Below are positions 1,895-61,806 of a stretch of DNA of 64,000 nt, piece after piece. The notes below the pieces were generated by a model, which had not been told where the DNA came from, did not search any database, and saw only the letters and a program-made list of their open reading frames with translations. The position numbers and the translations under genes are program-made. The stretch is from Luteolibacter yonseiensis (GTDB lineage: Bacteria; Verrucomicrobiota; Verrucomicrobiia; Verrucomicrobiales; Akkermansiaceae): the NCBI RefSeq assembly GCF_016595465.1, contig NZ_JAENIK010000001.1, positions 186,001 to 250,000 of the forward strand, given 5' to 3'. How positions within the stretch are numbered: position 1 is the stretch's first letter; every line of letters starts with the position of its first letter.

Positions 1895-1996
1895 GCCTGA
1901 ATTTTTTCATTCGGGAACTCCGAAACACGACCGGTCCTCAATTCGGACGGTGGTTTGCGAGGTGTCCTACGGAATCCATGGAACCGATGTCCCGGC

Positions 1997-2782
1997 TCAC
2001 GGGAAAAAGCACCGTTCCGCATTTCCGCGGGTCAGTTCCGCCAGAGCTTCGCCGGACATTCCCAATGATCCTGCCAAGGCCTCGCCGATGGCTGCCAGAT
2101 TCGCCGGGTGGTTGTGGTTTTCCGGCAGCGGATGACTGATGATCTCCGGCGGCGGAAGCATGTCCGGGGCGTCGGTTTCCAGCAGGATGCGGTCCTGTGG
2201 AAGCTGGCGGAAAACCTCGATCACGGCGGATTTCCGAGGTTGGAGGAAATACCCGGAAAATGAAAAGTAGGCCCCCAGCGGGATCAAACGCCGGGCGATC
2301 TCGATGCTGCCGCCGAAGGAATGCATGAGGAAACGCGGCGGAGGCGGATCCTCCTTGAAAATCTCGAAGAGTTCGCCCCATGCCTTCAGGCAATGGATGG
2401 TGACGGCGCGATCCATCTCCCTGCCAAGGCGGAGCTGGTCGATGAAGACGGGCCGCTGGATTTCCAACGGTGGGGTGGAAACCCACTGATCCAGTCCGCA
2501 CTCGCCGATGGACGCCTGCGGATGTTTCTCCAACAGCCCGGCCAGACGATCCTGCCAGCCGGGAGTGGCGGTGTGGGCGTGCCACGGATGGATGCCGAAA
2601 GCGGGCGCGACGAAATCCGGATGCGCGAGGGACAGGGTCTCCACCGCATCCCAGTCGGCCTCGCGGGTGGCGTTGACGATGCAGCGGGCCACGCCGGCGG
2701 CCTTCATCGCCGCGACGACCGGAGCCGCATCGCCCAGCCGGGGATCCTGGAGGTGGTTGTGGGCGTCGGTCCAGAGTGGCAT
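1997..2782 (-). CDS. TatD-family metal-dependent hydrolase
   Basis: The 261-residue protein carries the TatD metal-site signature in order: DAHNHLQD at residue 6, GECGLD near 94, an IHCLKAW histidine near 130, MHSFGGS near 153, and ETDAPDMLPPPE near 203. TatD proteins are cytoplasmic TIM-barrel metalloenzymes described as 3'-5' exonucleases or deoxyribonucleases active on DNA and RNA ends. Length matches the family (about 260). It lies 102 bp upstream, in transcription order, of the YdjM-like gene on the same strand. Whether the substrate is DNA cannot be told from sequence, because the family has diverged. Confidence 0.85.
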   Translation of the reverse strand: MPLWTDAHNHLQDPRLGDAAPVVAAMKAAGVARCIVNATREADWDAVETLSLAHPDFVAPAFGIHPWHAHTATPGWQDRLAGLLEKHPQASIGECGLDQWVSTPPLEIQRPVFIDQLRLGREMDRAVTIHCLKAWGELFEIFKEDPPPPRFLMHSFGGSIEIARRLIPLGAYFSFSGYFLQPRKSAVIEVFRQLPQDRILLETDAPDMLPPPEIISHPLPENHNHPANLAAIGEALAGSLGMSGEALAELTRGNAERCFFP

Positions 2783-2998
2783 GGGCTGGTGGCAGGCTGG
2801 ACCGGGAACGGGCTCCGATCAATGGCGAAGCTGGGAAACGTCAGCGCCACACCCCTTTGGATATTTTATCGTTGTCGGTGATTGTCGGGGTCACGATTTT
2901 GAGGATTCACCTCCAACGCGCCAAGGTCTCGAAGGAGGATGATGGATGAAGCTAGCTTGGGGGCTCAATTTATGGTGTCTGGAAGGATTGCGCGATTA

Positions 2999-3661
2999 TT
3001 ACGGGTTGGTTGTGCTTGATGATCGGAACTTGTCTTGAACAATATGATTTTCGAGTAGGTCGCCAAACATCCGCATCAGTTCAATTGTTTTGGTGGTGAC
3101 GCTTTCTAAATCGCTCATGTCGATCATTATATCCTCACCGTGAGCTATGGAGTTGCGTCGCTTGAGGAGTAATAAGTCGATGAATGTTTCGTGCTCCAAA
3201 AAACTCGCGCTGGATATCCCACAAACTAAGCAAATCGACTCGAAAATTTTAAAATTCAGATTGGATTGGGTGTTGATTAAATCGGAATGGACCCTTTTGA
3301 ATTGCTTGTCGTTCGAATCAAGTATCTCGTCTATGAGCAAGCTGCGTTCCGTAAAGCTGCCCTTTTTTGCGTTCATTGCTGCAAGCGGTGGTAGAAATCG
3401 GTTCCTGGTAAACTGTCTATCAAGTTGATCAAATCTAAGCTTTTTTAATGTTATGTGCTCCATGTATTTGGATGCTGCCGCCTTTACGTAGCCCTCCCAA
3501 TGTGCATAGCACAGAGTTATAAGGCCGCGTAGCAATACTTTCCTTAGGATTGGGTCAGCACGTTTGATAGCGGTCTTCAATTCTCCGATTTCCCGTATTC
3601 TCCAAGTTCTATCATCGGCAAGGATTTGGACGAGATTTTCAATGCTGTAAGGTTTGCTCAT
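2999..3661 (-). CDS. HEPN-domain nuclease-like protein, MAE_28990/MAE_18760 type
   Basis: The 220-residue, largely helical protein contains a WEGYVKAAASKY segment near residue 55 and the HEPN motif RRNSIAHGE near residue 170, which fits the RNase signature R-x4-H. These features match the MAE_28990/MAE_18760-like HEPN proteins, predicted RNases found in toxin-antitoxin and phage defence loci. Its ATG overlaps the stop codon of the upstream DUF262 gene as ATGA (3658-3661), so the two are almost surely translated together. The DNA is clearly AT-richer than its neighbours, which suggests horizontal acquisition. Enzymatic activity is inferred from the motif only. Confidence 0.7.
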   Translation of the reverse strand: MSKPYSIENLVQILADDRTWRIREIGELKTAIKRADPILRKVLLRGLITLCYAHWEGYVKAAASKYMEHITLKKLRFDQLDRQFTRNRFLPPLAAMNAKKGSFTERSLLIDEILDSNDKQFKRVHSDLINTQSNLNFKIFESICLVCGISSASFLEHETFIDLLLLKRRNSIAHGEDIMIDMSDLESVTTKTIELMRMFGDLLENHIVQDKFRSSSTTNP

Positions 3662-4785
3662 GGTGCGAACCAGTTTTTCCCGAAATCAACAGTCCTTTGG
3701 ATTCGGGTGGTTCCCCGTAATCCAAGGGAGGTGAATTTCGATAAATCAGGCTGAGACCAAAATTCTTCAATTCTGCTTCTAACGAAGTCGGCAGGTGATG
3801 GCAGATTGTTTATTCTTTTCAAATTCTTGCCGACTCCGACCGCGATCGCTTCTAAGCCTACAAGGCCAACTTTGCCAGTATGAGATGAGCCGGTGAATTT
3901 TCGTAACGCGTTTTTTCCGGCGGCGTCTTTCAGTAGTTTGTAGGTTTGTGTGATCTGGTTAAATGCCCTAATGCTTGGAATCTTATTCGCTAATTTAACA
4001 ATTCCATCATCAATATATTCCTCCACGTCAAGTTTTCCGTCGTAAGGCATATTAACATGAACAAGAAAGCGGACCGCGAACTCCATGTTTCTTTGTTTTC
4101 TAATTTGTTCCTTTGATACATTCATGACTTCTAGGAAATCCCGCGTCTCTGAAGCGCTTCTGACTGCATCAAAAAAATGTCGATTAGACATTACCATGAT
4201 ACAGTTGCGCAGTTCTTGAGCGTTTGCTTGAGTTCCCCCAGCATTGAGCCTTTGGAAGAGGTCGAACTTTGTTTGATTGTCGCTCGGCCTCTTCAGTATT
4301 TCCACTCCAAGTCGACCTCTTCGAATAGCAAGCTGCGCGGCCTTGTCGAGCGCTATTTGGTCTGATTCATCTATGCCGTCACCTGCAATTTCAGGCGATT
4401 TCTCCCAGACGACATTGTGAAGAGATGGGAGATATTTTGTTCCGTCCAGAATGGAGGGAGTCCTCAATTTTCCGCTCTCATCACGCAGAATGCCCATGAA
4501 TTCGAAAATGGTGGAAATTCTTTGAAGCCCATCGATAAGCTCCCATTCTCCTTCTGCTGTTTCAAATACAAAGATTGAGGGCAAAGGAATGCCTAACAAA
4601 ATTGATTCGATCAGTTTGGATTTTTGGCTGATTTCCCAGCGGAATAAACGTTGGAAATCTGGATCGATTGTGATCTCGTCCCTTTCATACATGCTGACGA
4701 TCTCGCCGATTGACATTTGATATGCATCAGTTCGGACGTGCCTCTGAGCCTTGGTAATTTCGTCGTTTAGCATTGTTACGTTCAT
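3658..4785 (-). CDS. DUF262 (ParB/GmrSD-N-like) domain protein
   Basis: The 375-residue protein has the N-terminal DUF262 pattern: IDPDFQRLFRWE near residue 41, ESILLGIPLP, then IDGLQR near residue 85, a variant of the DGxQR motif of the ParB-like nuclease fold. A second family motif, RLNAGGTQANAQELRN, lies near residues 178-193. DUF262 forms the N-terminal half of GmrSD and BrxU type IV restriction enzymes, where it binds nucleotide and can act with a DUF1524 HNH nuclease. Here no HNH domain follows. The downstream HEPN protein, translationally coupled through ATGA, may supply the effector instead. AT-rich composition points to a transferred defence cassette. The overall pairing is an inference. 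Confidence 0.75.
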   Translation of the reverse strand: MNVTMLNDEITKAQRHVRTDAYQMSIGEIVSMYERDEITIDPDFQRLFRWEISQKSKLIESILLGIPLPSIFVFETAEGEWELIDGLQRISTIFEFMGILRDESGKLRTPSILDGTKYLPSLHNVVWEKSPEIAGDGIDESDQIALDKAAQLAIRRGRLGVEILKRPSDNQTKFDLFQRLNAGGTQANAQELRNCIMVMSNRHFFDAVRSASETRDFLEVMNVSKEQIRKQRNMEFAVRFLVHVNMPYDGKLDVEEYIDDGIVKLANKIPSIRAFNQITQTYKLLKDAAGKNALRKFTGSSHTGKVGLVGLEAIAVGVGKNLKRINNLPSPADFVRSRIEEFWSQPDLSKFTSLGLRGTTRIQRTVDFGKNWFAP

Positions 4786-4985
4786 TTGGAGGGAGGAACT
4801 ATCGTTCCGAGCGCAAATTGCAAGGAAATCCGAGCATGCCGTCAGGGTCTTGGCGATTCCGAATCAGTTTCGGTCAGGCATGAATCCGGTATTTACTCAT
4901 TCGGGTGTTGGACGTGAAACATCGGGGCTGATTGAATCGTTGTCGGAATTCCCTTTTCTCAAAAACCCATCCATCGCCCTGCCAG
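4786..4985. other. Divergent intergenic region upstream of the DUF262 gene and the GH2 gene
   Basis: This 200-bp gap must hold the promoters of the leftward DUF262-HEPN cassette and the rightward glycosidase. It contains no convincing ORF and no clear operator. The composition changes here from AT-rich (left) to GC-rich (right), so the right edge of the presumed acquired segment falls in this gap. Confidence 0.5.
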
Positions 4986-7900
4986 ATGAATCTCCCGAAC
5001 CGCCACCGACTGTTTCTCATCTCCCTGCTCGGGATAACCACCGCCCACGCGGCGGAGACGGAGCTGCTCTATCTCTCCGGCCATGGTCCCAAGGATGCGG
5101 TGCCGTGGGACTTCACCGTGACGAAGGGTCGGCGCGCCGGAGAGGCCACGACCATTCCGGTACCGTCCAACTGGGAGCAACATGGCTTCGGTTCATACAA
5201 TTATGGCGAGAGCCCGGGCGGAAAGGCGGACGAGCACGGCATCTACAAGACCCGCTTCACCGTGCCGGAAAACTGGAAGGGACGGCGCGTCCGCATCGTG
5301 TTCGACGGGGTGATGACGGACGCCGCGGTGAAGGTGAACGGAAAACCGGCGGGGCCGGTGCATCAGGGCGGGTTCTACCGGTTCCGCCATGACATCACCA
5401 AGCTGTTGGAACCCGGGAAGGAGAATGTCCTGGAGGTGGATGTCTCGAAATGTTCGGCGGACCCGCTGACGGAACGCGCGGAACGGAACGCGGACTATTG
5501 GGTGTTCGGCGGGATCTTCCGCCCGGTGTTCCTGGAGGCGGTGCCGGAGCAGCGCATCGAACAGGTGTCGGTGAACGCGACGGCGGACGGGGTGTTCAAG
5601 GCGAACGTGGATTTCGGAAGCCTGCGGGAGTCCGCCCTGCTCGAGGCGCGGCTCTACGATGCGGCGGGCAAGCCGGTGGGGGATGTTTTCTCGGCTGAGA
5701 TTCCGGGAGGCGGTGCCAGCCGGGTGAGCGTGGAGACAAAGGTCCCGCAGCCCGCGCTGTGGACGGCTGAGACGCCGCAGCTTTACACCGTGAAGTTCGC
5801 GTTGAAGAAGGGGGGCTCCGACATTCATGAAGTCACCCAGCGCTTCGGTTTCCGCACCATCGAGGTGAGGAAGGGCGGCGGGATTTTTCTCAATGGCGAA
5901 CGCATCCTGCTCAAGGGAGTCTGCCGCCACAGCTTCCGTCCGGAAACGGCGCGCGCCCTCGACAAGGAGTCCTGCTACGACGACGTGCGGCTGCTGAAAT
6001 CCATGAACATGAACGCGGTCCGGATGAGCCACTATCCGCCGGATGTGGCGTTTCTGGAAGCCTGCGACGAACTCGGATTGTATGTCATCAACGAGCTCAG
6101 CGGCTGGCAGAACGCGCATGGCACGGAGATCGGCCGCAAGCTGGTCCGCGAGATGGTGACGCGGGATGTGAACCACCCGTGCACGCTCTTCTGGGACAAT
6201 GGCAACGAAGGCGGCTGGAACCGCGAATTGGACGGGGACTTCCGGCTTTACGATCCCCAGGACCGCACCGTGCTGCATCCGTGGGAGGCCTTCAATGGCG
6301 TGGACACGAAGCACTACCCATCGTTCGCGGACCTGACAAAACGCCTCGCCGGTCCGAACACGGTGATGCCGACGGAAATGATCCACGGTCTCTTCGACGG
6401 CGGCGCGGGTGCGGGACTGGAGGATTACTGGAAGGCCATCGCCGCGTCACCATTCGGCGGCGGAGGTTTCATCTGGGTGCTGGCGGACGAGGGCATCATG
6501 CGGACGGACCAGGAAAACCGCATCGATGTCTTCAGCACCTACGCGCCGGACGGCATCGTGGGGCCTCGCCATGAGAAGAAGGGGAGCTATCATACCGTGC
6601 GCGATGTCTTTTCGCCCGTCCAGGTAGCCGCACCGGTGCTGGATGCCTCGTTCGATGGCAGGCTCACGGTGAGGAACCGCTATGATTTCCTCTCCCTCGA
6701 GGGCTGTCATTTCGAGTGGCGGTTGTTGCGTTTTCCCAAGGCGTCCGACCGTGGTGGCAAGGAGGAGGTCCTGGGTCATGGGAAGCTGGACGCTCCCGGG
6801 ATTCCCGCTGGGAAAGACGGCGACCTTCAACTGGCCCTGCCCGCCGACTGGCGGAAATCCGATGCGCTCGCGCTGGTGGCCACGGACAGGAACGGCCAGG
6901 AGTTATGGACGTGGACATGGGCGACGCCCGCGCAGGCCGGGGATGGCGCTTCCCAAACGGAGCCATCAGGAAAGGTCGCCGCCGTCACCGGGGACGCCGG
7001 AATTTCGCTCACTGCGGGTGAGGTGACCGCGTCGTTCGACAAGGACGGCCGGCTCGCCAATTTCAGCCGGGACGGCAAGGCCTCGTCGCTGTGCGACGGA
7101 CCGCGCGTGGTGTTCGCAAGACCCGCGAAGGGAGACATCCGGTGGGAGGATGCCAGTCTCACCGCCGGACCGGACGGTGGGATGCTATGGAAACCGGAGA
7201 CTCCCCGGATGCTGAATCTTCTTGAGATCGATCTGGGTCTTCCGAGGCAGATCAACTGGGCGGGATTCAAGTTGGAAATCTCACCCGATGGCGAAAAGTG
7301 GAAGACCATCTACGATGCCACACGCCGCAACAACGACGGCAATGGCTACGAGTTCCCGCCGCAGATGGTGGCGGCCGTGAGGCTTTCTAACTTCCGTCAG
7401 GTGGACGGCGGACAACCTGCGGTCAAGCGGCTGCGCGTGGCCTGGCAGGCGGAACGGTTCCCCGCCGCCGCGACCTCGCCTCCGACGGTGACCACCGGTG
7501 CGGACTGGCTGGAAAGCGTCGCGGCGGATGGTTCGCAGCGTTTCCGCTGGACGTTGGCGGGATCGGGAGACCTCCGGCTGGACTACTCCTACACGCTCGA
7601 CGGCGAGTTCACCTATCATGGCATCACCTTCGATCACGCGGAAGACACCTTCCAATCCGTGAAATGGCTCGGGGAAGGGCCCAGCCGTGTCTGGCAGAAC
7701 CGCCTGCGCGGCACGACACTGGGCGTGTATGAAAAGCAACGGAACGACATCCAGCCGGGCGTGTCGTGGGATTTTCCCGAATTCCAAGGCTTCTTCGCCG
7801 ACATGCGCTGGGCGCGGTTCGAGACATCGGCGGGGCCGCTCACGGTTTCCAGCCCGCAGCCCGGGACCTATCTCCGCATCGGCACCCCGAGGATCAGCCA

Positions 7901-8066
7901 CCCGTTCACGACCGTGGCGTTTCCGGCAGGGGATCTTTCATTCATGAAGGCGATCCCGGCGATCGGTTCGAAGTTCCTCACACCCGCGAACTCCGGCCCC
8001 TCCGGCCAACCCGCGAAGGTGGCGGGGCGGCAGGACGGTTCGCTGGTGTTCCGCTTGGGCGAGTGA
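4986..8066 (+). CDS. Secreted glycoside hydrolase family 2 (beta-galactosidase-like) with a discoidin-like insert
   Basis: From the ATG at 4986 the protein has 1026 residues and starts with a Sec signal peptide (MNLPNRHRLFLISLLGITTA then HAAE); an in-frame ATG 54 bp upstream would precede this signal and is less likely. The order is a GH2 jelly-roll sugar-binding domain (about 30-195), an Ig-like domain (200-300) and a TIM barrel (300-560). The barrel has the acid/base Glu408 in GNEGG and a probable nucleophile Glu464 in PTEMIHG. The C-terminal part holds a discoidin/F5-F8-like segment (about 735-825, NWAGFKLEISPDGEKW) and a beta-galactosidase small-chain-like end (GEGPSRVWQNRLRG). It should hydrolyse beta-galactosides or related glycans in the periplasm or outside the cell. 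Substrate is uncertain. Confidence 0.85.
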   Translation: MNLPNRHRLFLISLLGITTAHAAETELLYLSGHGPKDAVPWDFTVTKGRRAGEATTIPVPSNWEQHGFGSYNYGESPGGKADEHGIYKTRFTVPENWKGRRVRIVFDGVMTDAAVKVNGKPAGPVHQGGFYRFRHDITKLLEPGKENVLEVDVSKCSADPLTERAERNADYWVFGGIFRPVFLEAVPEQRIEQVSVNATADGVFKANVDFGSLRESALLEARLYDAAGKPVGDVFSAEIPGGGASRVSVETKVPQPALWTAETPQLYTVKFALKKGGSDIHEVTQRFGFRTIEVRKGGGIFLNGERILLKGVCRHSFRPETARALDKESCYDDVRLLKSMNMNAVRMSHYPPDVAFLEACDELGLYVINELSGWQNAHGTEIGRKLVREMVTRDVNHPCTLFWDNGNEGGWNRELDGDFRLYDPQDRTVLHPWEAFNGVDTKHYPSFADLTKRLAGPNTVMPTEMIHGLFDGGAGAGLEDYWKAIAASPFGGGGFIWVLADEGIMRTDQENRIDVFSTYAPDGIVGPRHEKKGSYHTVRDVFSPVQVAAPVLDASFDGRLTVRNRYDFLSLEGCHFEWRLLRFPKASDRGGKEEVLGHGKLDAPGIPAGKDGDLQLALPADWRKSDALALVATDRNGQELWTWTWATPAQAGDGASQTEPSGKVAAVTGDAGISLTAGEVTASFDKDGRLANFSRDGKASSLCDGPRVVFARPAKGDIRWEDASLTAGPDGGMLWKPETPRMLNLLEIDLGLPRQINWAGFKLEISPDGEKWKTIYDATRRNNDGNGYEFPPQMVAAVRLSNFRQVDGGQPAVKRLRVAWQAERFPAAATSPPTVTTGADWLESVAADGSQRFRWTLAGSGDLRLDYSYTLDGEFTYHGITFDHAEDTFQSVKWLGEGPSRVWQNRLRGTTLGVYEKQRNDIQPGVSWDFPEFQGFFADMRWARFETSAGPLTVSSPQPGTYLRIGTPRISHPFTTVAFPAGDLSFMKAIPAIGSKFLTPANSGPSGQPAKVAGRQDGSLVFRLGE

Positions 8067-8099
8067 GATCCCGCGGCACCCCGGGGGGCCTCATCTCAC
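8063..8099. terminator. Inverted repeat at convergent gene ends
   Basis: GTGAGAT (8063-8069) pairs with ATCTCAC (8093-8099), enclosing a second GC-rich palindrome with CCCCGGGG. It spans the stop codons of the converging glycosidase and LolA-like genes, which are only 24 bp apart. It has no U tract. It may reduce read-through in both directions; this is inferred from position. Confidence 0.35.
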
Positions 8100-8822
8100 C
8101 CCGCGCGGTGCCACCTTTTTCGGGCTGTCGAAGGCGACATCCGTGATGGAAAGCCTGCGGCCTCCGTTGTTCGGGTCGCAGGTGGCCACCTGCATCTTGC
8201 GGAGGGTCCAGACGTTGTCCGCGACCTTCATCACGTCCTCGACCTGGAATTCCTTCACCAGTCCGCCGTTCTTGTCATGGCCGCGGATGCGCATGAAGGC
8301 TCCGAACTTGGTGTGGACCCAGACGTAGACCACCTCGTAGCGGCCGGAGGCTCCTTTCGGCTTGTCCACCCGCAGCTTGTAACACGGTTGTCCGCCGACG
8401 TCCTCCGTGCCTTCGAGTTTGGGATTCGGCCAATAGAAGAAGCGCAGGGCGAGGTCCTCGTAGGTGAGATCCGTCCCGGCGATGGGCTGGACGATCTTGT
8501 CCGCGGGAAACTCGGTGGTCTTGCCGTTGATGATTTCGAACAGGTTGAAATTCTCATCGCCGATCCGCATGTGGAAGATCCGCCAGGGACCCTTGTTTTC
8601 GGAAAACTGGAACTGGATGTCCTTGCCTTTGAGAAAGAGGGTGATGGGAACGTTCGCACCGCTTTTTTTGAGATTTCCGCTGAGTCCCTCGTCGAGCTTG
8701 GTGAGGGTGGCGGAGATGCGGGCCCCTTCGAGGATCTGCTGCGCGGACGGCTGCTGGGCGGAAGCGCTGGCGACGAGCGAGATGGCGAGCGCCGCGGCAG
8801 GAAAGAATGATTTGAAATTCAT
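8091..8822 (-). CDS. Periplasmic LolA-like outer membrane lipoprotein-sorting family protein
   Basis: The 243-residue protein has a signal peptide (MNFKSFFPAAALAISLVASASA, cut before QQPSAQQ). The mature part alternates short beta strands typical of the LolA/LppX half-barrel. Segments such as KGKDIQFQFSENKGPWRIFH, GTDLTYEDLALRFFYWP, YKLRVDKP and YVWVHTKFGAFMRIRGHDKNG resemble the LolA-like proteins often annotated as outer membrane lipoprotein-sorting proteins. Such proteins carry lipids or lipoproteins across the periplasm. No Lol partner is nearby, so the cargo is unknown. It converges on the glycosidase gene. Confidence 0.7.
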   Translation of the reverse strand: MNFKSFFPAAALAISLVASASAQQPSAQQILEGARISATLTKLDEGLSGNLKKSGANVPITLFLKGKDIQFQFSENKGPWRIFHMRIGDENFNLFEIINGKTTEFPADKIVQPIAGTDLTYEDLALRFFYWPNPKLEGTEDVGGQPCYKLRVDKPKGASGRYEVVYVWVHTKFGAFMRIRGHDKNGGLVKEFQVEDVMKVADNVWTLRKMQVATCDPNNGGRRLSITDVAFDSPKKVAPRGVR

Positions 8823-52473: not shown

Positions 52474-55400
52474 TCACCCCTTCGATTTTTCGAAGAACTT
52501 CTGGTAAAGGAACGACGCGATGAATGCGATCACCGCCACGCCGACCAGCGCGCCGATGCGGAAGATGTTCTGGATGGCCGCGAGATCGTGGAGGAACACC
52601 TTCAACAGCGTCACCACCAGCAATCCTACCGCCGCGAAGCGGGCGTGCTCCGAGCCGCTCCGGAACCCGAGTCCCAGCAGGCCGAGCGAGAAGAGCCCCC
52701 ACGCGATGCTGTAGGTCATGTCACGGGCGAAGTTTCCTCCAAAGTTGAAGGCCACGCAGCGGTCGCCCGGGGCGGTGAAGTAGTCGGCGATCTCGATGTT
52801 CAGCAGCAGGAACAACAGGATCCCGCCCAGTGCGAGCAAGGTGCCGCGCGGCTTGAACCGCCGCAGTGGTTCGTGCGGATCAGCCAGCCATGTCGCTCCG
52901 AGGAAATGGGCCGCCGCCACCAGGCCGTAGGCATAGAGATGCCAGTTCAGGATGGGCGTGCCGCCACGCGCGTAATCGGTGAACACCACCGGATTGAGCG
53001 CGAGCCGGACGAACGAGGTGAGCAACAGCGCCAGCCCGGTGAACTGGAGTCCCGGGTGCGGCACGCGCCGGAACAACCAGAGCAGGAGCGCGCCCTCGAT
53101 CGCCCAGCTCACCGTGATCCACTGGCGCTCGAACTGGATCGGGAAAACGAGCGTGATGAAAAGCAAGGCCACCCCGCCGAACCACGCGAGCCGGCTTTGC
53201 TGGCGGGCATCCATTCCCGGGAACCATTTCCAGATGGCATACATTCCGATGAGGGAAGGCACCGCGAACGCCGCCGGGACGAGTCCCATGAAGTCGTTGG
53301 GGAACGACTGTTTCACCAACGAATGGACCAGAAGGAAATGCGCCACTCCGGACAGCGCGGCCGCGATCCATGTTTCGGGGAGATCCGCGCAGCGCTTCCG
53401 CAGGATGAACGGCACCAGCAGGAACAGCGAATAAAAGCCCAGGAACCATGCGAGGGGAATGCCCGGCGCAGGGTTTTTGAAATGATTCAAATACCAGATT
53501 CCCTCGACCGCGAACGTGCCGGTCAATGCGACCAGCATCAGCTTGCCCTGCTTTCCGGAGATGCCCAGGAACGTGAGCAGTCCGGTCATGAGCAGGGCCA
53601 CGAGGAAGACCGGAGTGGGCACCGGGACGGGAAGCTTCCCGAGGGCGAGCAGCAGCAGGACGAATGGCAGCACGGCCGCCGTGATGACCACGTCCGGCGT
53701 CGCTCCTTCTTCCTTTCCGCGATACAACCATTTTCCGGCGATGGTGAAGAGTGCGGAGAAACCGGTGATCACTCCGAGGAACGGCATCAGCGATGTGATG
53801 TCGGCGGGAGCCTTGAACAACCAAGCCCCGGCCACGCCCATGGTCAGCAGAAGGGAAACCAGCACCGGCAAAAGAGCGCCTGACGCGATGGCCAGCACGA
53901 TGACCAGCAGGTCAGCCATCAGAACCGCCCCCCAGAACAGCGGGGGAACCGCAGGCAGGTGGAAAATGGGGATGAGCATCATCACCAGCACCAGAGGGGC
54001 GAACCAGGGGCCGGATCGCTGCGGCAGCATTGCCAGCCGCGCGGGTTGGTAGCGGGCGACCAGCACGGGAACCACCGCGTGCAACGCGCCGAAGACCAGA
54101 CAAGCTCCGAGCAGCCAATGAAGGTTTTCGTCGGTGAGATGGTATTGGGTCCAACAGGCGAGGTGGAGGAAGCCCAGCAGTGCCGTGATGAATTGAGCGA
54201 TCCCCAGGGCCGGGCGAGCCAGCACGGTGGCGATGACTCCGAGATGGACGAGCAGCAGGAAGCCATACAAGAGAACCAGCCGTTCCGCGACCGATTCGTG
54301 GCCCAGCATGACGAACGAGAACAGCACGGCCACGGCGGACAGTCCGAAAACCGAACAGGCGGCATGGAGGTCCGGTCTGGGCCGCTTGATCCATCCGCCG
54401 ACCAGAAACAGGGCGATGAATCCCAGTTGGATTCCCATCGGGATCAGAATTAGGTTGTCATGGGCATACCCACCGTATGAGAAGAATTTGACGAACCAAC
54501 CGATCTGCGTCAGGGCCGTGCCCGCCGCCGCGCACGGAACGAGGAAGTGCCAGCGGTTGTGGCGGGAAACGGCCAGCAGCCCGGCATCCAACAGGGCGAT
54601 GTAGCCGAAGAGTCCCAGCACCTGGTCCTGTCCGGTCGAGAGCAGCACCGGCGTCATGAAACCGCCCAGCATCCCGAGGACCGCCACCACCAGCGCGTTC
54701 AGGCGGACCGAGATGAAAAACGCCGCGCAGGTGATGCAGGCCATCAGGGAGAAGGTCTGGATCGTCCCGAACAACGGGAAGTGATAGATGGCGTGTGCGG
54801 CGAAACTCACCCCGTAGAGGATCAGCACGCCCGTCGCGCAAAAGGCCTGCGCCAGCACGCGATAGCGCGGCAGCCGGTGGGTGAATAGCCCGCCTGCCAG
54901 CAGTCCGGTTCCGGTGAGGAAGCCAAGGATGATCCGGGTGGAAGGTGAGATCAGATTGTTCTCAAAGGCATACTTCACGAAGAAGATCACGCCGAAGAAC
55001 ATCGCCACGCCGCCAAGCCATGCGAAGAGCTTCACGCCCATGAATTTCTCCAGAGAGAAGGGTTCCGCCGGTTCCTTCGCCACGGCGGGTTCCACCGGGA
55101 CAGGGGCTTTTTCCGGGACGGCTTTCTCCGGTGGACCGTCATCTCCGTAGTCGATGAGCTTCCGCCGCTTGGCTGCCGTGGGCAGCGGGGGAGGGAGCGG
55201 GTGGTGTTCCGCACCGGTTCCGACGTCCGGAAGGGAAACCCTTACGGTCACACGCTCTGGTTCGATGTCCGGCCCACGCCCTGCCAATGGCGGTTCGAAC
55301 CGGGGAAGGTTTTCCTCGACGCGCGGGATGTCGGATTTGACCGTTCTTCCCTGCGGAATCACCGCCCGCTCCTCCGGTTTGGGAGCACGGCCCCCGAGGT

Positions 55401-55566
55401 GGGACATCTCGTTTTCCAACTGTCCGATGCGGGCCAGCGCGTCCTGGAGGTCGGTCCGTGCCTGCCTGGCCTCGCTTCTGGCATCGGACGCTCTCGCCAG
55501 GGCGACGAAGGGGGCGATGACGAACCAGATCAGAACGAGTACTGCGATGATGATGATGCCTTCCAT
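52474..55566 (-). CDS. DUF2339 giant membrane protein
   Basis: From ATG 55566 the protein has 1030 residues. It begins with a transmembrane segment (MEGIIIIAVLVLIWFVIAPF) and a short coiled coil (SDARSEARQARTDLQDALARIG). A low-complexity linker with PLPPPLP follows. The rest is a long series of more than 20 predicted transmembrane helices with the DUF2339 start FMGVKLFAWLGGVAMFFGVIFFVKYAFE near residue 170. Members are found in many Gram-negative bacteria; function is unknown. It converges on the mprF-acvB operon with a 27-bp gap. Confidence 0.8.
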   Translation of the reverse strand: MEGIIIIAVLVLIWFVIAPFVALARASDARSEARQARTDLQDALARIGQLENEMSHLGGRAPKPEERAVIPQGRTVKSDIPRVEENLPRFEPPLAGRGPDIEPERVTVRVSLPDVGTGAEHHPLPPPLPTAAKRRKLIDYGDDGPPEKAVPEKAPVPVEPAVAKEPAEPFSLEKFMGVKLFAWLGGVAMFFGVIFFVKYAFENNLISPSTRIILGFLTGTGLLAGGLFTHRLPRYRVLAQAFCATGVLILYGVSFAAHAIYHFPLFGTIQTFSLMACITCAAFFISVRLNALVVAVLGMLGGFMTPVLLSTGQDQVLGLFGYIALLDAGLLAVSRHNRWHFLVPCAAAGTALTQIGWFVKFFSYGGYAHDNLILIPMGIQLGFIALFLVGGWIKRPRPDLHAACSVFGLSAVAVLFSFVMLGHESVAERLVLLYGFLLLVHLGVIATVLARPALGIAQFITALLGFLHLACWTQYHLTDENLHWLLGACLVFGALHAVVPVLVARYQPARLAMLPQRSGPWFAPLVLVMMLIPIFHLPAVPPLFWGAVLMADLLVIVLAIASGALLPVLVSLLLTMGVAGAWLFKAPADITSLMPFLGVITGFSALFTIAGKWLYRGKEEGATPDVVITAAVLPFVLLLLALGKLPVPVPTPVFLVALLMTGLLTFLGISGKQGKLMLVALTGTFAVEGIWYLNHFKNPAPGIPLAWFLGFYSLFLLVPFILRKRCADLPETWIAAALSGVAHFLLVHSLVKQSFPNDFMGLVPAAFAVPSLIGMYAIWKWFPGMDARQQSRLAWFGGVALLFITLVFPIQFERQWITVSWAIEGALLLWLFRRVPHPGLQFTGLALLLTSFVRLALNPVVFTDYARGGTPILNWHLYAYGLVAAAHFLGATWLADPHEPLRRFKPRGTLLALGGILLFLLLNIEIADYFTAPGDRCVAFNFGGNFARDMTYSIAWGLFSLGLLGLGFRSGSEHARFAAVGLLVVTLLKVFLHDLAAIQNIFRIGALVGVAVIAFIASFLYQKFFEKSKG

Positions 55567-55722
55567 GGGAATTGCCAGAATACTATCCCGGGAACTTCCA
55601 CTGGCCACCTGAAATTGATAGTGACAAGGCGGACACACTCCATGGTCCGGCGGCCCGGTGTTAGAGTTCGCCGTGTCAATCGTCTCCCATGTTCATCCGC
55701 GGTGGAAAATCCGACCGCGCCG

Positions 55723-57033
55723 TCATTCGTCGCTGTATCCCACGACGCCCTTGGGAAATCCATTCTTGTGCAACTCCTCCGCACGCCGGATCTGGGTGTC
55801 GATTCCGCGATAGAGCTCCGCCGGATCGTAGGGCGTGATTTCCGCCGGACTCATGCCGACTCCCTCGATGCCCTTCCCTCCATTGAAGCGCGCCTTGTTG
55901 GAAAAAACGGAGTAATACACGCTGAACAAACCGCTGGGCACCGCGACCTTCGTTTTCTGCGATGACATGCCCGCCGTCGGCGTGTCTCCGATGGTATAGG
56001 CGCGGCCACCGTCTTCCTTGAACATGCCCGCGATGGTCTCGCCCGCGGAACGGATCCCCGCGTCATAGATCACCACCATGGGACCGTCGTAGGGATTGGG
56101 ACCCTGGCTGGTGGCGTTGGCCCATCGTTTGCCAGCGGGAAGGAAGCGGCCCATCACCGCCTCATGATCGCAACCTCCGCCACCGTTCGCCCGCAGGTCG
56201 AGGATGAGGCCGGGGACGTTGCCGAGTTCTCCGAGCATCTTGTCGAGTTGTTCGGGGAGCTTGCCGGGGATGTCCCGCAGGTGGATGTAACCGTATCCGT
56301 CCGGAGTTTTTCCATAGGACTGCCTTCCCTCGGATTTCAGGTCCTTCGGCGGCACCGCGGGACCAAAAGGCGCGAAGTTCGGGCCTCCCCGGCGGGTGAT
56401 GGTGATTTTTTCGATCTTGTCCGCATCCGGTGCCTTCACTTCGAACGCGATCTCCGTTCCCTCCCAATCCGCAAGCCCCCAGTGGCAGGCCGAATAGAGT
56501 GCCATCTGGTCGGTGGAAAAACCGGAGGTGTCCCGCATTTCCGCCATCTTGCGGTCAAGCCACTGGCGTGCGGGCGTGCCATCGATGGCGACCACTTCCT
56601 GCCCGGGCTTGATCCCGGATTCCAGCGATGGGCCGAAGGAGGTCCGCACATAAACCTTGTCTCCCACCACCAGCAGATGGACGCGGGGTCCCGTCCAGCG
56701 TCTGCCCTGCGACTCATCCGGCCAAGGCACCTTCACGTCCCGCAGCGAGGCGTGGCCGTCCTTGAGCCGGGCCAGCAGGCGTCCGCAGAGCTTCACGTGC
56801 TCGCTGTCGGTTTTCACCGATTTCACCGCCTCGCGGAATTCCGTCTTCACCGCCTCCCAGTCGATCTTCTTGTTTTCGAAAAAGATGCCCGCCCGCTTCG
56901 GCAGTTCCTCCAACAGGAACTCCACATCCTTGGCATAGGTGGCGGGATCCGTCCCGCCGGCACGGGCGGCACCCCGGGCGGCCAGCAGGCAGAGGGTGCA
57001 AACACCGGTTTTCAAAAATGAGCGGAGTTTCAT
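55723..57033 (-). CDS. Secreted S41-family (C-terminal processing) peptidase
   Basis: The 436-residue protein has a signal peptide (LKTGVCTLCLLAARGAARA). It has an N-terminal helical part, a PDZ-like segment (YVRTSFGPSLESGIKPGQEVVAIDGTPAR near residue 128) and the S41 catalytic fold. That fold begins GYIHLRDIPGKLPEQLDKML, continues GLILDLRANGGGG, and has the probable nucleophile Ser in YDAGIRSAGETIAGM near 325. The usual second-site Lys is probably in TAGMSSQKTKVAVP. Such proteases cleave C-termini of exported proteins. It is transcribed in the same direction as the BlaR-like locus upstream, 22 bp from its last gene. Confidence 0.75.
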   Translation of the reverse strand: MKLRSFLKTGVCTLCLLAARGAARAGGTDPATYAKDVEFLLEELPKRAGIFFENKKIDWEAVKTEFREAVKSVKTDSEHVKLCGRLLARLKDGHASLRDVKVPWPDESQGRRWTGPRVHLLVVGDKVYVRTSFGPSLESGIKPGQEVVAIDGTPARQWLDRKMAEMRDTSGFSTDQMALYSACHWGLADWEGTEIAFEVKAPDADKIEKITITRRGGPNFAPFGPAVPPKDLKSEGRQSYGKTPDGYGYIHLRDIPGKLPEQLDKMLGELGNVPGLILDLRANGGGGCDHEAVMGRFLPAGKRWANATSQGPNPYDGPMVVIYDAGIRSAGETIAGMFKEDGGRAYTIGDTPTAGMSSQKTKVAVPSGLFSVYYSVFSNKARFNGGKGIEGVGMSPAEITPYDPAELYRGIDTQIRRAEELHKNGFPKGVVGYSDE

Positions 57034-57055
57034 GACCGGATGGAGGGTGAGGGGT

Positions 57056-57622
57056 TCACTCCTTGTCGAGGAAGTTGACCAGGAGCTCGCCGCGGTGGTC
57101 GGTCGCGGTCGCGTAGTCCTTGCGGATCTCCTCCATCAGCTTCTTCGCTTTCGCGGCGTCGCCCCGCTGCTTCTCCTTCCCGGCCAGCAGGAGCCTCGCC
57201 CAGCCTCCCACGGAAGTACCATTGAGATAGTAGCAATCGCTGTATTCCTTGATGGCCATTTCCAGATATTCGCGCGATTCGTCCGGATCACGGGAAAACT
57301 GGCCGATGTAACACGCGGCGCAGCCCGCGCGGTTCGACTTCGGATACTTCTCGATGACCTGCTTGAGCAACTCCTGGTTCTCCGGCGTGCGGGGATTCTC
57401 GTTCGCCTTCTGGTAGAGCCCCTCCATGGATTCCAGCTCGTCGCCCTTGAGTTTTTTCCCGTCCTTCTGCCAGGCATCGCGGGCCTTGTCCTTGTTTTCC
57501 TCCGCCGCCCGTTCGCGCTGGCGTTCGGTCGCCTTGCCCTTGTCGGACGGTTCGTCCTTGGCGGACAGTGGAGCGGTGGCGAGGGCGGGCAACGCCAGCA
57601 GGAGCAGCCATTTCGTGTTCAT
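57056..57622 (-). CDS. Secreted companion protein sharing the C-terminal domain of the adjacent M56 sensor
   Basis: The 188-residue protein has a signal peptide (MNTKWLLLLALPALATAPLSA), a charged coiled-coil stretch (KATERQRERAAEENKDKA) and a C-terminal domain with YPKSNRAGCAACYIG and YSDCYYLNGTSVGGWARLLLA. The same pattern, YPRSNRTGCAKLF and SGDCYYLDGTSVGGVARLILA, ends the M56 sensor encoded 35 bp upstream. The two conserved cysteines and the DG(T)SVGG turn suggest a TPR-like pair with a disulphide. It may compete with or imitate the sensor domain in the periplasm. No database family is known to me. Confidence 0.7.
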   Translation of the reverse strand: MNTKWLLLLALPALATAPLSAKDEPSDKGKATERQRERAAEENKDKARDAWQKDGKKLKGDELESMEGLYQKANENPRTPENQELLKQVIEKYPKSNRAGCAACYIGQFSRDPDESREYLEMAIKEYSDCYYLNGTSVGGWARLLLAGKEKQRGDAAKAKKLMEEIRKDYATATDHRGELLVNFLDKE

Positions 57623-57657
57623 TGTGTTTTTTCAGGGTTGTGGGTTGAACAAAATTC

Positions 57658-59238
57658 TCAGAGGCCGGCCCGCAGTTCGCGCGCGGCGTCTTCCAGCGGA
57701 TTTCCCTCGTGGTCGAGATAACCGGCGAAGTCCTTTTCAAGCTCATCCAGCCATTTCCCCGCCTCATCCGTCCTGCCCGCCGCCACCAGATCCTGCGCCA
57801 GGATCAGCCGCGCGACCCCGCCCACCGATGTCCCATCGAGATAATAGCAATCGCCCGATTCCGCGATGACCTCCCGCAGCTTCCGCTCGCGGACTGTGCC
57901 GGACGCCGCACGGGCGGAGAAAAGCTTCGCGCAGCCGGTCCGGTTCGAGCGCGGGTATCTGGCGGACAACTCCGCATAGACCTCTTCCTTTTCCGCTGTG
58001 GTCAGCTTCCTGCGTGCCTCCTGATAGATCGTCTCGATGGCGTTGCGCTGCTCGGCATCATAGACGTTGGCGTCCTCGGCCTGTCTTGCGGAAGCCCGCC
58101 GCTGGTTGAGTTCCACGCGTTCCTCGCGGTCGCTTTTCTTTTGCAGCCGTCCTTCGAGATCCGTCACCCGCGCTTCCAACCGCTGGATTTCCCCGTGTGC
58201 CGCGACTTCCCCGGCGAACCCGCCACGGAAGCTGGGCAGCAGGAGCAGCAGCGCCAGCAGCACGGCGGCGGTCATGGCCGACGACTGGCGCAGCGGAGCG
58301 ATGCCCCGCAGCAACCAGCGCATCCGCCAGCGCGCCGTCCGCCCCTCAAGGCTGAGGCCCGGCATCATCGCCCGATTGAACGAAACCCGGGACTGGGCAC
58401 GCTCCACCAGCGACAGGAATCCGGTGGCGGATTCCTTCGGCAGAATGCCCGTCACCCGCACGGCGGATTCATCGCAGGCACGCTCGCGCAGGGCCGAGGC
58501 CGCGATGCCGGCCACCCACACGGCGGGATTGAAAAAACAAAGAAGCGCGCACGCCGCCTGTGCCAGCGAGACGGCCCAGTCGCCATGGCGCAGGTGCGAA
58601 ACCTCGTGAGCCAGCGTCCACCGGAGCTGTGGCTGGCTGAGTTTTTCCGCAAGGCCGGTGGGAAGGATGACACAAGGCTTGCGCCCGCCCCATGCGGCGG
58701 GGGAGGAAAGCTCGTCGCTTTCACGCAGACCTGTTCCGGCGAGATCGAGGCGTGTGACCCAATCGGCATCCAGTCCCAGATCCGCGGCTTCCACCGTCCG
58801 GGCGTCCCTGACAAGCCGCCACGTTCTCCATGCGCGCAGGCCTGACAGGCCGGCTCCCACCGCCACGACACCGGACCACATGACGAAGAGCCATCCCTTC
58901 GTCCCGATGGAAAACGGCTCATGCCCTTGCTCGGAGGCGGAAACCATCAGAGAGCGTTCGTCCATCATTTCGGGATGATCTGCGGAAACATCCGCCAGGG
59001 GTGATGACGTCTCCTTGAAACGGGCGGCATCCCAGCCGGGCATCGCCACCGGAGTGGGGATCAGCGACTTCGCCATCACCAGCAAAAACAACCACATGCC
59101 CCAGCGCGCGGGGATCACCTTGCGGAACAACATCCACAGAATCCCGGCGACCAGCAACGCCAGCGTCCCGTCCGCCAGGGCGCCGATCGCCCACACCGAC
59201 CAAGGATCCGACAGGGAACGGATGGTTTCCGCGATCAT
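57658..59238 (-). CDS. BlaR1/M56-family zinc metallopeptidase sensor
   Basis: The 526-residue protein has four or five transmembrane segments and a cytoplasmic zinc-protease core with HEVSH near residue 214 and the downstream glutamate in ALRERACDESAVR near 250. The extracytoplasmic C-terminal half carries a coiled coil (EIQRLEARVTDLEGRLQKK) and a TPR-like domain, but no beta-lactam-binding penicillin-binding-protein domain. BlaR1-type proteins cut their BlaI repressor when the sensor domain binds its ligand. The ATG overlaps the BlaI stop codon by 4 bp (ATGA). The sensor domain matches the separate protein encoded next, so the ligand is probably not a beta-lactam. Confidence 0.8.
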   Translation of the reverse strand: MIAETIRSLSDPWSVWAIGALADGTLALLVAGILWMLFRKVIPARWGMWLFLLVMAKSLIPTPVAMPGWDAARFKETSSPLADVSADHPEMMDERSLMVSASEQGHEPFSIGTKGWLFVMWSGVVAVGAGLSGLRAWRTWRLVRDARTVEAADLGLDADWVTRLDLAGTGLRESDELSSPAAWGGRKPCVILPTGLAEKLSQPQLRWTLAHEVSHLRHGDWAVSLAQAACALLCFFNPAVWVAGIAASALRERACDESAVRVTGILPKESATGFLSLVERAQSRVSFNRAMMPGLSLEGRTARWRMRWLLRGIAPLRQSSAMTAAVLLALLLLLPSFRGGFAGEVAAHGEIQRLEARVTDLEGRLQKKSDREERVELNQRRASARQAEDANVYDAEQRNAIETIYQEARRKLTTAEKEEVYAELSARYPRSNRTGCAKLFSARAASGTVRERKLREVIAESGDCYYLDGTSVGGVARLILAQDLVAAGRTDEAGKWLDELEKDFAGYLDHEGNPLEDAARELRAGL

Positions 59239-59642
59239 GGCTCCTTGTCCCCGGCGGGTGGTTGATCCTCCGCTTCCGCCAGCACCCTCCTCAGCTCCGC
59301 CACGTCGTCCACGCCGAGACGGGTTTTCCCGATCATGTAGGCAAGCAGCGGGCCTCCGAGGGAGCCCGGCATCTTGTCGAGCAGGTGATCCGCCGCCTCA
59401 CGCAGGCTGGCGGACATGCTGGTCTTCGGCTCGTAGAGGAAGCTGTTGCCGATCCGCGTCGCCTTCAACCGCTTCTTCTCCACCAGCCGTGCGAGATAGG
59501 TCTTCGTCGTGGTGGCCGCCCAACCGTGGCGCTCCTCCGCGAGCTTTGAAGCATCGCGCGCGGCGCAACGTTTCAACTCCCAGACGATGTTCATCAGGAG
59601 CCATTCGTTGTCGGTGAGGGAACTGGAGGATCTGCCGGCCAT
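59235..59642 (-). CDS. BlaI/MecI-family transcriptional repressor
   Basis: The 135-residue protein starts LTDNEWLLMNIVWEL, the standard BlaI/MecI helix pattern. A recognition helix follows (GWAATTTKTYLARLVEKKRLK), then a winged strand (ATRIGNSFLYEPKTS). The C-terminal dimerisation helices are present (REAADHLLDKMPGSLG). BlaI dimers repress their own operon until the sensor protease cuts them. The gene precedes the M56 sensor with a 4-bp overlap, the normal arrangement. A possible operator lies at 59669-59684. Confidence 0.85.
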   Translation of the reverse strand: MAGRSSSSLTDNEWLLMNIVWELKRCAARDASKLAEERHGWAATTTKTYLARLVEKKRLKATRIGNSFLYEPKTSMSASLREAADHLLDKMPGSLGGPLLAYMIGKTRLGVDDVAELRRVLAEAEDQPPAGDKEP

Positions 59643-59668
59643 CGGGAAACTAAATTGATTAGTTGAAC

Positions 59669-59684
59669 GACTACAACATTAGTC
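59669..59684. promoter_or_regulatory. Candidate BlaI operator
   Basis: GACTA-CAACAT-TAGTC is a perfect inverted repeat with 5-bp arms, 27 bp upstream of the blaI start codon. It contains ACTACA and TTAGTC elements of the kind expected for BlaI/MecI half-sites. The assignment is inferred from position and symmetry. Confidence 0.45.
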
Positions 59685-59766
59685 ATTCTATCCGATGTGG
59701 CAAGAAGATTTACGGCGGATTTCCTCCGAGGGCTCTATACGACCTATACGCAGGCCGCTGGAAAAC

Positions 59767-61806
59767 TCACCAGATCTTCACCCGGTCCTCCGGTTTCACG
59801 TAAAGCTTGTCACCGGGCTTGATGTCGAAGGCCTCGTACCAGGCGTCGATGTTTCTAACAATGCCATTGACGCGGGCGATGGCCGGGGAATGCGGGTCGG
59901 AGTGGATCTGCTTGAGCAGCATCTCGTCGCGGACCTTCTGCCGCCACACCTGCGCCCAGCCAAGGAACACCCGCTGGACGCCCGTGGTGCCGTCGATGAC
60001 CGGGGCGGGTTGTCCCTTGAGCGATGCCAGGTAGGCGTCGAGGGCGAGGTTCAGTCCGCCCAGATCGCCGATATTCTCGCCCATGGTGAGCTGCCCGTTG
60101 ATGCGCTGGCCGGGCATGATCTCGATTTCCTCATACTGCTTGCCAAGCCGTTCCGCGCGCTCGGCGAATTTTCCCGCGTCCTCGTCGGTCCACCAGTCCT
60201 GGAGGACTCCGTCCCCGTTGGACTTGCGGCCCTGGTCGTCGAAGCCGTGGCTGATCTCATGGCCGATGACCCCGCCGATGCCGCCGTAGTTGATGGCCGG
60301 GTCCGCCTTGGGGTCGAAGAACGGCGGCTGGAGGATGGCGGCGGGGAAGACAATCTCGTTCATCGTCGAGTTATAATAGGCGTTCACCGTCTGCGGCGGC
60401 ATTCCCCATTCCTTGCGGTCCACCGGTTCGTCGAGGCGGTCCAGCTCCTCTTTCCATGAAACAGCCGAGGCCCGGACCACGTTGCCGTAGAGGTCGTCGG
60501 GCTTTATTTCCAAGGCGGAGTAGTCCTTCCATTTGTCGGGATAGCCGATCTTCACGGTGAACTTGGCGAGCTTGTCCTGTGCCGCCTTCTTGGTGGCGTC
60601 GCCCATCCATTCCAGGCCGTTGATGCGGATGGCCAGGGCGGCCCGCACGTTGTTGACCAGATCCAGCATCTGTTGCTTGGATTCCTCGGGGAAGTAGCGT
60701 TTCACGTAGATCCGGCCGACCTCCTCGCCGAGGGTCTTGTTGGTCACATCGACGCCGCGTTTCCAGCGGTCCATCTGCTCGGGTTGTCCGGAAAGGGTCT
60801 TGTTGTTGAACTCGAAGCTGGCATCGACAAAAGCCTTCGACAGGAACGGTGCGGACGCGCTGGCCAGCCCGCAGGCGGTCCACGCCTTCAGCAGGTCCAA
60901 GGGAGTCTCCGCGAAGATCGCCGCCTTCGCGGGAAAGGCGGTGTTGTCGGTGACGATCACGTTGCCCACCTTGGAAAGTCCCTTGCCACCCAGGAGCTTT
61001 GCGAAATCGAATCCCGGAGCATACTCCGCCAGGGCGGAGGGAGTCATGGGGTTGTAGGTCTTGTCGCGGTTCCGCCGCTCGGCGCGCTCCCATGTTTTTT
61101 CCGCCAGCCGGGTCTCGAACGCGATGATCTCCTTCGCCGTTGCCGCGGGCTCGGGCCACTCGATCAGGGTCAGCAGTGTGGCGAGATAAGTCTCATACTT
61201 GGTGCGGATCGCCGCGAATTCAGGCTTCAGGTAATAGTTCTTGTCCGGCAGCCCGAGTCCGCCGGAACTGACATAAACCGTGTATTTCGCGGGATTCTTC
61301 GCATCCGCACCGATTCCCGCCTCGAAAACCCCGCGACCGAAGATCTCCGGCGAGGCCGTGATGGCGACCAGTTCCTCGCGGCTGGCTGCGTTGCGGATCT
61401 TCGCCAGGTCTCCGGCGAGTGGCGTGGCTCCGAGTTTTTCGACCGCCGCCTCATCCATGAAGGAGCGGTAGAACTCCCCGATCTTCCGGGTTTCCGCCGT
61501 CGGACTCTTGACCGCCTCATCGAGGATCCCCCGGACACGGGCTTCCGAGAGGATCGCCAGCGCGTCGAAGTTGCCGAAGCGGGCGCGATCCGCCGGGATG
61601 GTGGTGTTGTCCAGATAGGTTCCGTTCGTGTAGTTGAAAAAGTCGTCGCCGGGCTTCACGGACTCCTTGCGGCCTGCGAGGTCGAATCCCCAGGTGCCGA
61701 AGCGTGGGGCTGCCGTGGATTCGCCGGTTTGTGCGACCGCTTCCGATGCGAGGGCGGCGAGTGCGAGCAAGGTCGAGAGGGCGGCGTGGGAAAGGCGGGT
61801 GTTCAT
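59767..61806 (-). CDS. Secreted M13-family metalloendopeptidase (neprilysin/PepO type)
   Basis: The 679-residue protein has a signal peptide (SHAALSTLLALAALASEAVA), the substrate-binding motif NAYYNSTMNEIVFPAAILQ near residue 475 and the zinc motif IGHEISHGFDDQG near 517. The third ligand motif, MGENIGDLGGLNLALDAY, lies near 575. A terminal DPHSPAIARVNGIVRNID motif completes the M13 signature. These enzymes cleave short peptides outside the cytoplasm. Length matches the family (about 670-700). It lies downstream of the BlaI locus on the same strand but 125 bp away. Confidence 0.85.
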   Translation of the reverse strand: MNTRLSHAALSTLLALAALASEAVAQTGESTAAPRFGTWGFDLAGRKESVKPGDDFFNYTNGTYLDNTTIPADRARFGNFDALAILSEARVRGILDEAVKSPTAETRKIGEFYRSFMDEAAVEKLGATPLAGDLAKIRNAASREELVAITASPEIFGRGVFEAGIGADAKNPAKYTVYVSSGGLGLPDKNYYLKPEFAAIRTKYETYLATLLTLIEWPEPAATAKEIIAFETRLAEKTWERAERRNRDKTYNPMTPSALAEYAPGFDFAKLLGGKGLSKVGNVIVTDNTAFPAKAAIFAETPLDLLKAWTACGLASASAPFLSKAFVDASFEFNNKTLSGQPEQMDRWKRGVDVTNKTLGEEVGRIYVKRYFPEESKQQMLDLVNNVRAALAIRINGLEWMGDATKKAAQDKLAKFTVKIGYPDKWKDYSALEIKPDDLYGNVVRASAVSWKEELDRLDEPVDRKEWGMPPQTVNAYYNSTMNEIVFPAAILQPPFFDPKADPAINYGGIGGVIGHEISHGFDDQGRKSNGDGVLQDWWTDEDAGKFAERAERLGKQYEEIEIMPGQRINGQLTMGENIGDLGGLNLALDAYLASLKGQPAPVIDGTTGVQRVFLGWAQVWRQKVRDEMLLKQIHSDPHSPAIARVNGIVRNIDAWYEAFDIKPGDKLYVKPEDRVKIW

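Follow-up and report, generated by a model that had tools for sequence, protein, structure and literature searches.

A BlaR1-like M56 protease of Luteolibacter yonseiensis shares its C-terminal TPR domain with the protein encoded beside it

Introduction

What does it mean for a membrane-bound sensor protease that its C-terminal domain also occurs as a separate protein, encoded by the next gene? In BlaR1, the outer domain is reported to act as the sensor, and BlaI to be cleaved directly (PMC9834060). This sensor domain is described as structurally homologous to class D beta-lactamases (PMC5957439; PMC7593790). We analyzed a stretch of 64,000 nucleotides from the 5.7-Mb genome of Luteolibacter yonseiensis (contig NZ_JAENIK010000001.1, positions 186,001 to 250,000), here called the window, in which a BlaR1-like M56 protein ends in a domain that recurs in an adjoining protein of 188 residues. 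This domain is termed X, the fusion protein M56-X, and the separate protein free X. An earlier note on this DNA had suggested that the separate copy could be a co-receptor, decoy, or ligand of the M56 protein.

Results

The two proteins share a homologous domain

The features of the locus are as follows, in coordinates of the window:

59669..59684, no strand: palindrome GACTA-N6-TAGTC, 26 bases ahead of blaI, a candidate operator at which the BlaI-like repressor may bind
59235..59642, minus strand: BlaI/MecI/CopY-type repressor of 135 residues (PF03965 Penicillinase_R, 1.7e-20, 74 bits, cut-off 22.6)
57658..59238, minus strand: M56 (BlaR1-like) membrane metalloprotease with C-terminal X, 526 residues, HEVSH (PF05569, 5.3e-23, 82.1 bits, cut-off 31)
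58144..58188, minus strand: heptad (coiled-coil-like) stretch at about residues 351-365 of the M56 protein (IQRLEARVTDL), between the last hydrophobic segment and X
57676..58137, minus strand: X domain of the M56 protein, residues 368-521 (HMM 2.8e-62; the model alignment includes the same sequence)
57056..57622, minus strand: free X, 188 residues, signal peptide by eye (HMM 2e-69; the sequence itself is in the model)
55723..57033, minus strand: S41 peptidase of 436 residues, secreted as judged by eye (PF03572, 6.3e-17, 62.1 bits, cut-off 24)

The M56 and 188-residue reading frames lie on the minus strand where the earlier note had placed them, and the two motifs that it had quoted are present in both proteins (YPRSNRTGCA/YPKSNRAGCA and CYYLDGTSVGG/CYYLNGTSVGG). 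The M56 C-terminus and the 188-residue protein are homologous, with 51 of 143 aligned residues identical (36%; BLASTP 85.5 bits, E 5e-24). When both motifs were masked in both sequences, the local alignment score was still 102, which none of 2000 shuffles equaled (mean 33.6, standard deviation 5.4, maximum 57), and a chance likeness limited to the motifs is thus ruled out. A search of the whole genome with free X returned itself and the M56 C-terminus alone (E <= 0.01). X therefore certainly also occurs as a free protein adjoining its M56 fusion. The separate copy lies in the same gene row and, judged by a signal peptide recognized by eye, looks secreted.

X is a small TPR domain

X comprises about 150 residues with a TPR fold. 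There is no dedicated Pfam family for it, and Pfam returned weak TPR matches only. Of 42 X domains scanned singly, 30 matched TPR_6 at E <= 0.01. AlphaFold2 predicted free X with a pLDDT of 91.1 and a pTM of 0.80, and the M56 C-terminus with 96.3 and 0.86, the models resting on 41 and 38 sequences, respectively. In both models, paired helices follow each other in series, and a loop with the motif DCYYxxGxxVG lies between two helices. X has about two to three TPRs, and no lipobox was recognized by eye. In an alignment of eight X domains, N-R-x-G-C-A and G-x-x-V-G were invariant; in an alignment of 42, this held for D22, G68, C69, G103, and L114. A disulfide between the two motif cysteines is not favored, as the second cysteine is Ala or Ser in several copies.

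The best PDB sequence matches of X were CpoB (1.9e-4) and YbgF (0.015). Among the folds compared by structure, the TPR domain of YbgF (2xev) was the top row for free X (Z 12.0, 2.0 A over 111 residues), and Foldseek gave no match for X at E <= 0.001. As other TPR proteins followed 2xev within one Z, the TPR identity of X is secure by these models, whereas for CpoB the comparison suggests a possible kinship. The CpoB/YbgF family model TIGR02795 scored 21.1 bits with X, below its cut-off of 90.1.

The M56 protein is of the BlaR1 type apart from its sensor domain

HExxH and RE-x-x-CD are present in all four aligned M56-X proteins. The protein of the window has hydrophobic segments at residues 15-44, 48-66, 116-134, 222-250, and 316-343, and in the model, one helix of 52 residues (341-392) joins the last of these to the TPR fold. 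By analogy to BlaR1 and MecR1, the C-terminal domain would be placed outside. In agreement with the earlier note, X occupies the position that a penicillin-binding domain has in classical BlaR1, as the M56-X C-terminus had no match to a penicillin-binding family in Pfam at E <= 1. The model blaR1_generic covered residues 33-261 only, with 51.6 bits where 400 are needed; assignment as a classical BlaR1 was rejected on account of the sensor domain.

None of the six other M56 proteins of the same genome ends in X, and none of their C-termini resembles a neighboring protein (BLASTP E <= 0.01, up to five reading frames on each side). By eye, one of these C-termini is penicillin-binding-like, two are alike, and one is almost missing. 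As the C-termini are thus of several kinds, exchange of the outer domain is ordinary in M56 proteins, and the unusual part is a domain shared with a neighbor. The penicillin-binding-like C-terminus belongs to locus L177 (G000:C4:168000-179000, reading frame 3678-6476, minus strand), and no BlaI-like gene was found among the checked neighbors of this M56 protein. The two similar proteins (L178 and L179, G000:C4) are encoded about 22 kb apart and resemble each other by eye at both the N- and C-termini, as paralogs would.

A repressor and a peptidase gene belong to the same unit

The unit is larger than first noted, as it also includes a BlaI-like repressor and an S41 peptidase. On the minus strand, the order in the direction of transcription is BlaI-like repressor, M56-X, free X, S41 peptidase. 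The blaI and M56 reading frames share 4 bases, the gap between M56 and free X is 35 bases, and that between free X and S41 is 22 bases. The genes 3' of M56 on the same strand encode X, S41, and a DUF2339 protein, and no beta-lactamase or PBP gene was found among the same-strand genes behind M56. Ahead of the unit, the minus strand also holds an M13 peptidase gene (59767-61806), which stops 124 bases short of blaI; no homolog of this peptidase was found in the X loci L059-L095. A promoter scan of positions 55000-60000 found none, and terminator-like sites in this region numbered 6, with 4.6 expected.

GACTA-N6-TAGTC also precedes blaI by 20 bases in genome G166 (locus L069) and by 37 bases in G062 (L061). 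It was thus found ahead of blaI in each of the three genomes where BlaI, M56-X, and free X were detected together, although this count is not an independent test, the palindrome having been found by comparing these same upstream regions. The window contains one exact match, and 100 shuffles contained none. Genome-wide, there is one exact site each in L. yonseiensis, G062, and G166, every one at the BlaI/M56-X operon. As a control with the reversed motif gave 3 sites in L. yonseiensis and 2 each in G166 and G062 (as well as 2 in G122 and 11 in G217), a single-site count is weak evidence, and it is the position before blaI that counts. G122 has one exact site on a different contig, at the end of an unrelated-looking reading frame, and G217, which contains two BlaI/M56-X operons without free X, has none. 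Judged by the sites, these data suggest that the BlaI-like repressor acts mainly on its own operon. The dyad TACA-N4-TGTA, taken for comparison, had no match in the window.

X is patchily distributed and fused to several regulators

X occurs patchily in Verrucomicrobiota and Planctomycetota. Including the genome of L. yonseiensis in each case, it was found in 6 of 99 relatives, in at least 12 of 288 genomes of the order (E <= 1e-8), and in at least 25 of 387 genomes of the phylum (E <= 1e-6); in two families of the order, 1 of 68 and 3 of 13 genomes had it. A species collection yielded 40 X loci, namely 8 from Planctomycetota (one of which, Adhaeretor, was assigned by taxonomy), 28 whose titles name Verrucomicrobia, Kiritimatiellae, Lentisphaerae, or their families, and 4 without such a name; as the query was built from free forms, fusions are under-sampled in this collection. 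No match to X was found in a plasmid collection.

The free form is the more common one (28 of 41 X carrier proteins). Beyond that of the window, M56-X fusions were found in L061, L069, L071, and L158 (by Pfam) and in L070 and L086 (by similarity to the M56 protein of the window). The L086 protein (1151-8467, minus strand) has 2438 residues, an M56-like N-terminus, and two tandem X domains. Locus L139 contains an M56 protein without X (3481-5733, minus strand), and the opposite strand encodes free X at a distance of about 1 kb.

X is also the C-terminal part of other regulators, namely a sigma-70 factor (L068), a HAAS protein encoded behind PadR (L136), and Ser/Thr kinases (L141, L089). These regulators differ from M56-X in their inner halves, and an adjoining free X is probable for the sigma fusion only. 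In L136 (6156-7441, plus strand), the PadR repressor is followed by the HAAS protein ending in X, so that X is found with another repressor system as well. Further partners of X are lectin, FGE, Big_5, carboxypeptidase-regulatory, and HEAT domains (the last in L158, and in L073 below the cut-off).

Free X is repeatedly followed by an S41 peptidase

The order BlaI, M56-X, X, S41 is found in the window and in G166. G062 has BlaI, M56-X, and X, followed by a transposase-like reading frame; in this locus (L061, 11417-12682, plus strand), the frame, recognized by eye, overlaps the end of free X at the usual place of S41. G156 has X and S41 and no match to M56 or BlaI. As in the window, S41 homologs lie directly 3' of free X in L067, L069, and L066, so that S41 follows free X directly in all four searched genomes of the order that have both matches.

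S41 homologs (E <= 1e-30) occur in at least 17 of the 288 genomes of the order, at least 4 of which also have X, and most genomes having the S41 homolog are without X. No X was found among the genes printed around 11 S41 loci of genomes without X (G144 and G114 excluded), so S41 does not need X. G062 and G085 have an X of the paired clade described below and no S41 match. A single clade of the X-linked S41 proteins was rejected (AU p 2.5e-65), and the link therefore either persisted while it was lost in other genomes or arose more than once. In G098 and G196 (loci L121 and L124), neither of which has an X match, a stop interrupts the S41 homolog or the homolog is spread over two frames.

The serine of S-[AS]-G-E and the DGH motif are present in all 13 aligned S41 proteins. 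A methionine aligns with the mutated lysine position of the Prc chain used, in which alanine presumably replaces the dyad lysine by mutation, and a lysine follows four residues on. As S41 thus seems to have no lysine at the dyad position of Prc, the analogy to adaptors of CTP-type proteases is loose.

In G122, sigma-X is encoded close to the end of a contig of 4437 bases. A frame with an obvious signal peptide starts 57 bases behind its stop codon and is cut short by the contig end; a further contig begins within free X, which is followed by S41. The two contigs share no overlap, so adjoining is rated as probable; a sigma factor thus probably replaces M56/BlaI before X and S41 in G122.

The M56 protein is probably the borrower of the domain

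A tree built from 50 X domains grouped M56-X of the window, G062, and G166 with the sigma copy of G122 (98/91). This clade is nested in one of ten that also holds the free X of the same genomes and of G156 and G085 (96/91). The branches concerned are long, and the tree model may pull them together. That sigma-X and all tested M56 fusions form a single clade was rejected (AU p 1.6e-8). Sisterhood of the two copies of one genome was rejected in G166 (p 4e-5) and G062 (p 0.0013), and not for the pair of the window (p 0.23). Free forms are widespread in the tree and M56 fusions occur at scattered places, so that the sensor probably took its domain from the secreted protein.

A heptad stretch precedes X in 7 of the 9 M56 and sigma fusion rows, both misses being the two X domains of L086, and in none of the 10 other fusion rows (two duplicates are included in the fusion rows). 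None of the six free X rows of the paired clade showed it (the L067 row is without its N-terminus), and it was present in 54 of the 57 other free rows (12 duplicates; 42 of 45 distinct proteins). It thus looks as though the regulators had acquired the secreted protein in its full mature length, and as though their free partners had lost the stretch.

Discussion

A repressor/sensor pair of the BlaR1/BlaI type is known, and what differs here is a TPR sensor domain shared with a product protein. As in BlaR1/BlaI and MecR1/MecI, an M56 protease with HExxH is joined to a BlaI-family repressor, with a palindrome before the operon. The differences are that a TPR domain replaces the penicillin-binding domain and that, instead of a beta-lactamase or PBP2a, the genes behind it encode a TPR protein and an S41 peptidase. 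A sensor fold in common with the proteins that deal with the ligand is itself reported for BlaR1, whose sensor resembles ligand-destroying enzymes, the class D beta-lactamases (PMC5957439). No publication on X or on an M56 protein with a TPR ectodomain was among the matches listed in a search of the open-licence literature.

The computed homology, fold, gene order, common palindrome, and S41 linkage lead us to propose a BlaI/M56 operon that regulates itself. Its sensor domain would have been borrowed from X, a secreted TPR protein, and its products would be X and S41; we favor this reading tentatively and rate it a little short of an even chance. X would recognize a polypeptide client in the periplasm and serve as its adaptor, free X handing the client to the S41 peptidase. 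As M56 carries X on a membrane-anchored helix, a rise in free client would occupy the sensor as well; the inner M56 protease would then become active and cleave BlaI, freeing the putative operator upstream of blaI, and more X and S41 would be made until S41 had removed the client. This would be the logic of BlaR1, with a pair of TPR proteins instead of a pair that binds beta-lactams. TPR adaptors that pair with S41 proteases are reported for NlpI-Prc (PMC5686067) and LbcA-CtpA (PMC8764530), which are likewise combinations of a periplasmic TPR protein with an S41 protease. NlpI and LbcA are described as lipoproteins with 4 and 11 TPRs (PMC8764530, PMC5686067), whereas X is smaller and seemingly no lipoprotein, and its putative pairing with S41 is drawn from gene linkage. 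S41 of the window, unlike Prc and CtpA, does not clearly belong to the Ser-Lys CTPs. Three observations argue against the loop: both M56-X operons of G217 have neither the palindrome nor free X, most genomes with the S41 homolog are without X, and G062 and G085 have X and no S41 match. The non-rejected sisterhood of the window pair leaves room for a recent origin of this pair.

The main rival is that free X is a partner of the M56 ectodomain through X-X contact, as co-receptor, ligand, or feedback inhibitor, with S41 acting on the sensor or on X. The same conserved core in both domains and their place in one gene row fit this reading, as does the free X beside all four members of the regulator clade (window, G062, G166, and probably G122). 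However, the free X proteins of the paired clade are without the heptads that most of the M56 and sigma fusion rows have, so that joining the sensor through a common coiled coil is unlikely, and no free X was seen in the stretches retrieved around the M56-X fusions of L070, L071, and L158. We consider this partnership somewhat unlikely. The list of co-receptor, decoy, and ligand also omitted the linked S41 peptidase; with it taken into account, a role as product or adaptor would fit free X better. An unlikely reading, next after the X-X partnership, is that X is a CpoB-like envelope scaffold for cell wall synthesis, that the regulators monitor the wall, and that S41 is incidental or serves wall maintenance downstream. 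The N-terminus of CpoB is a coiled coil, and most free X proteins share with CpoB/YbgF the succession of a heptad stretch and a TPR domain. CpoB is reported to be a trimer (PMC4458516), and a peptidoglycan fragment has been reported as a trigger of the BlaR system of B. licheniformis (PMC3305447). CpoB and YbgF were also the best sequence matches in the PDB and 2xev the top structural row, but the near-tie of the rows below it and the low TIGR02795 score weaken this kinship, no tol-pal genes were recognized by eye among the printed neighbors of X, and the link to S41 is a repeated one. X further differs from CpoB/YbgF in its conserved loop between the repeats and in its fusion to several regulators.

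That the M56 protein merely took the domain of its neighbor in a local duplication, with no common function, appears very improbable. X is promiscuous, given its many partners, and the window pair taken by itself would fit such an event, but G062 and G166 have such a pair as well, with the same palindrome, and in both genomes sisterhood of the two copies was rejected. Returning to the autoregulated loop, its wider form would be that X serves the Planctomycetota and Verrucomicrobiota generally as a periplasmic read-out. Unrelated inner machines (M56/BlaI, PadR/HAAS, kinases, and a tethered sigma factor) would each have captured the domain of one secreted TPR protein and would read the state of this protein; in one order, the sensor, free X, and S41 would make up a closed proteostasis loop, with sensor and product competing for one client. 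We regard this generalization as possible, though doubtful.

To our knowledge, few signals have been described for M56/BlaI systems that act outside beta-lactam resistance. When sensor and probably induced protein have the outer domain in common, the search for the signal narrows to the ligands of that domain and comes within reach of direct tests. If true, the probable swap of a sigma factor for M56/BlaI would be a natural rewiring experiment, in which the transmembrane circuit was changed and input and output were kept.
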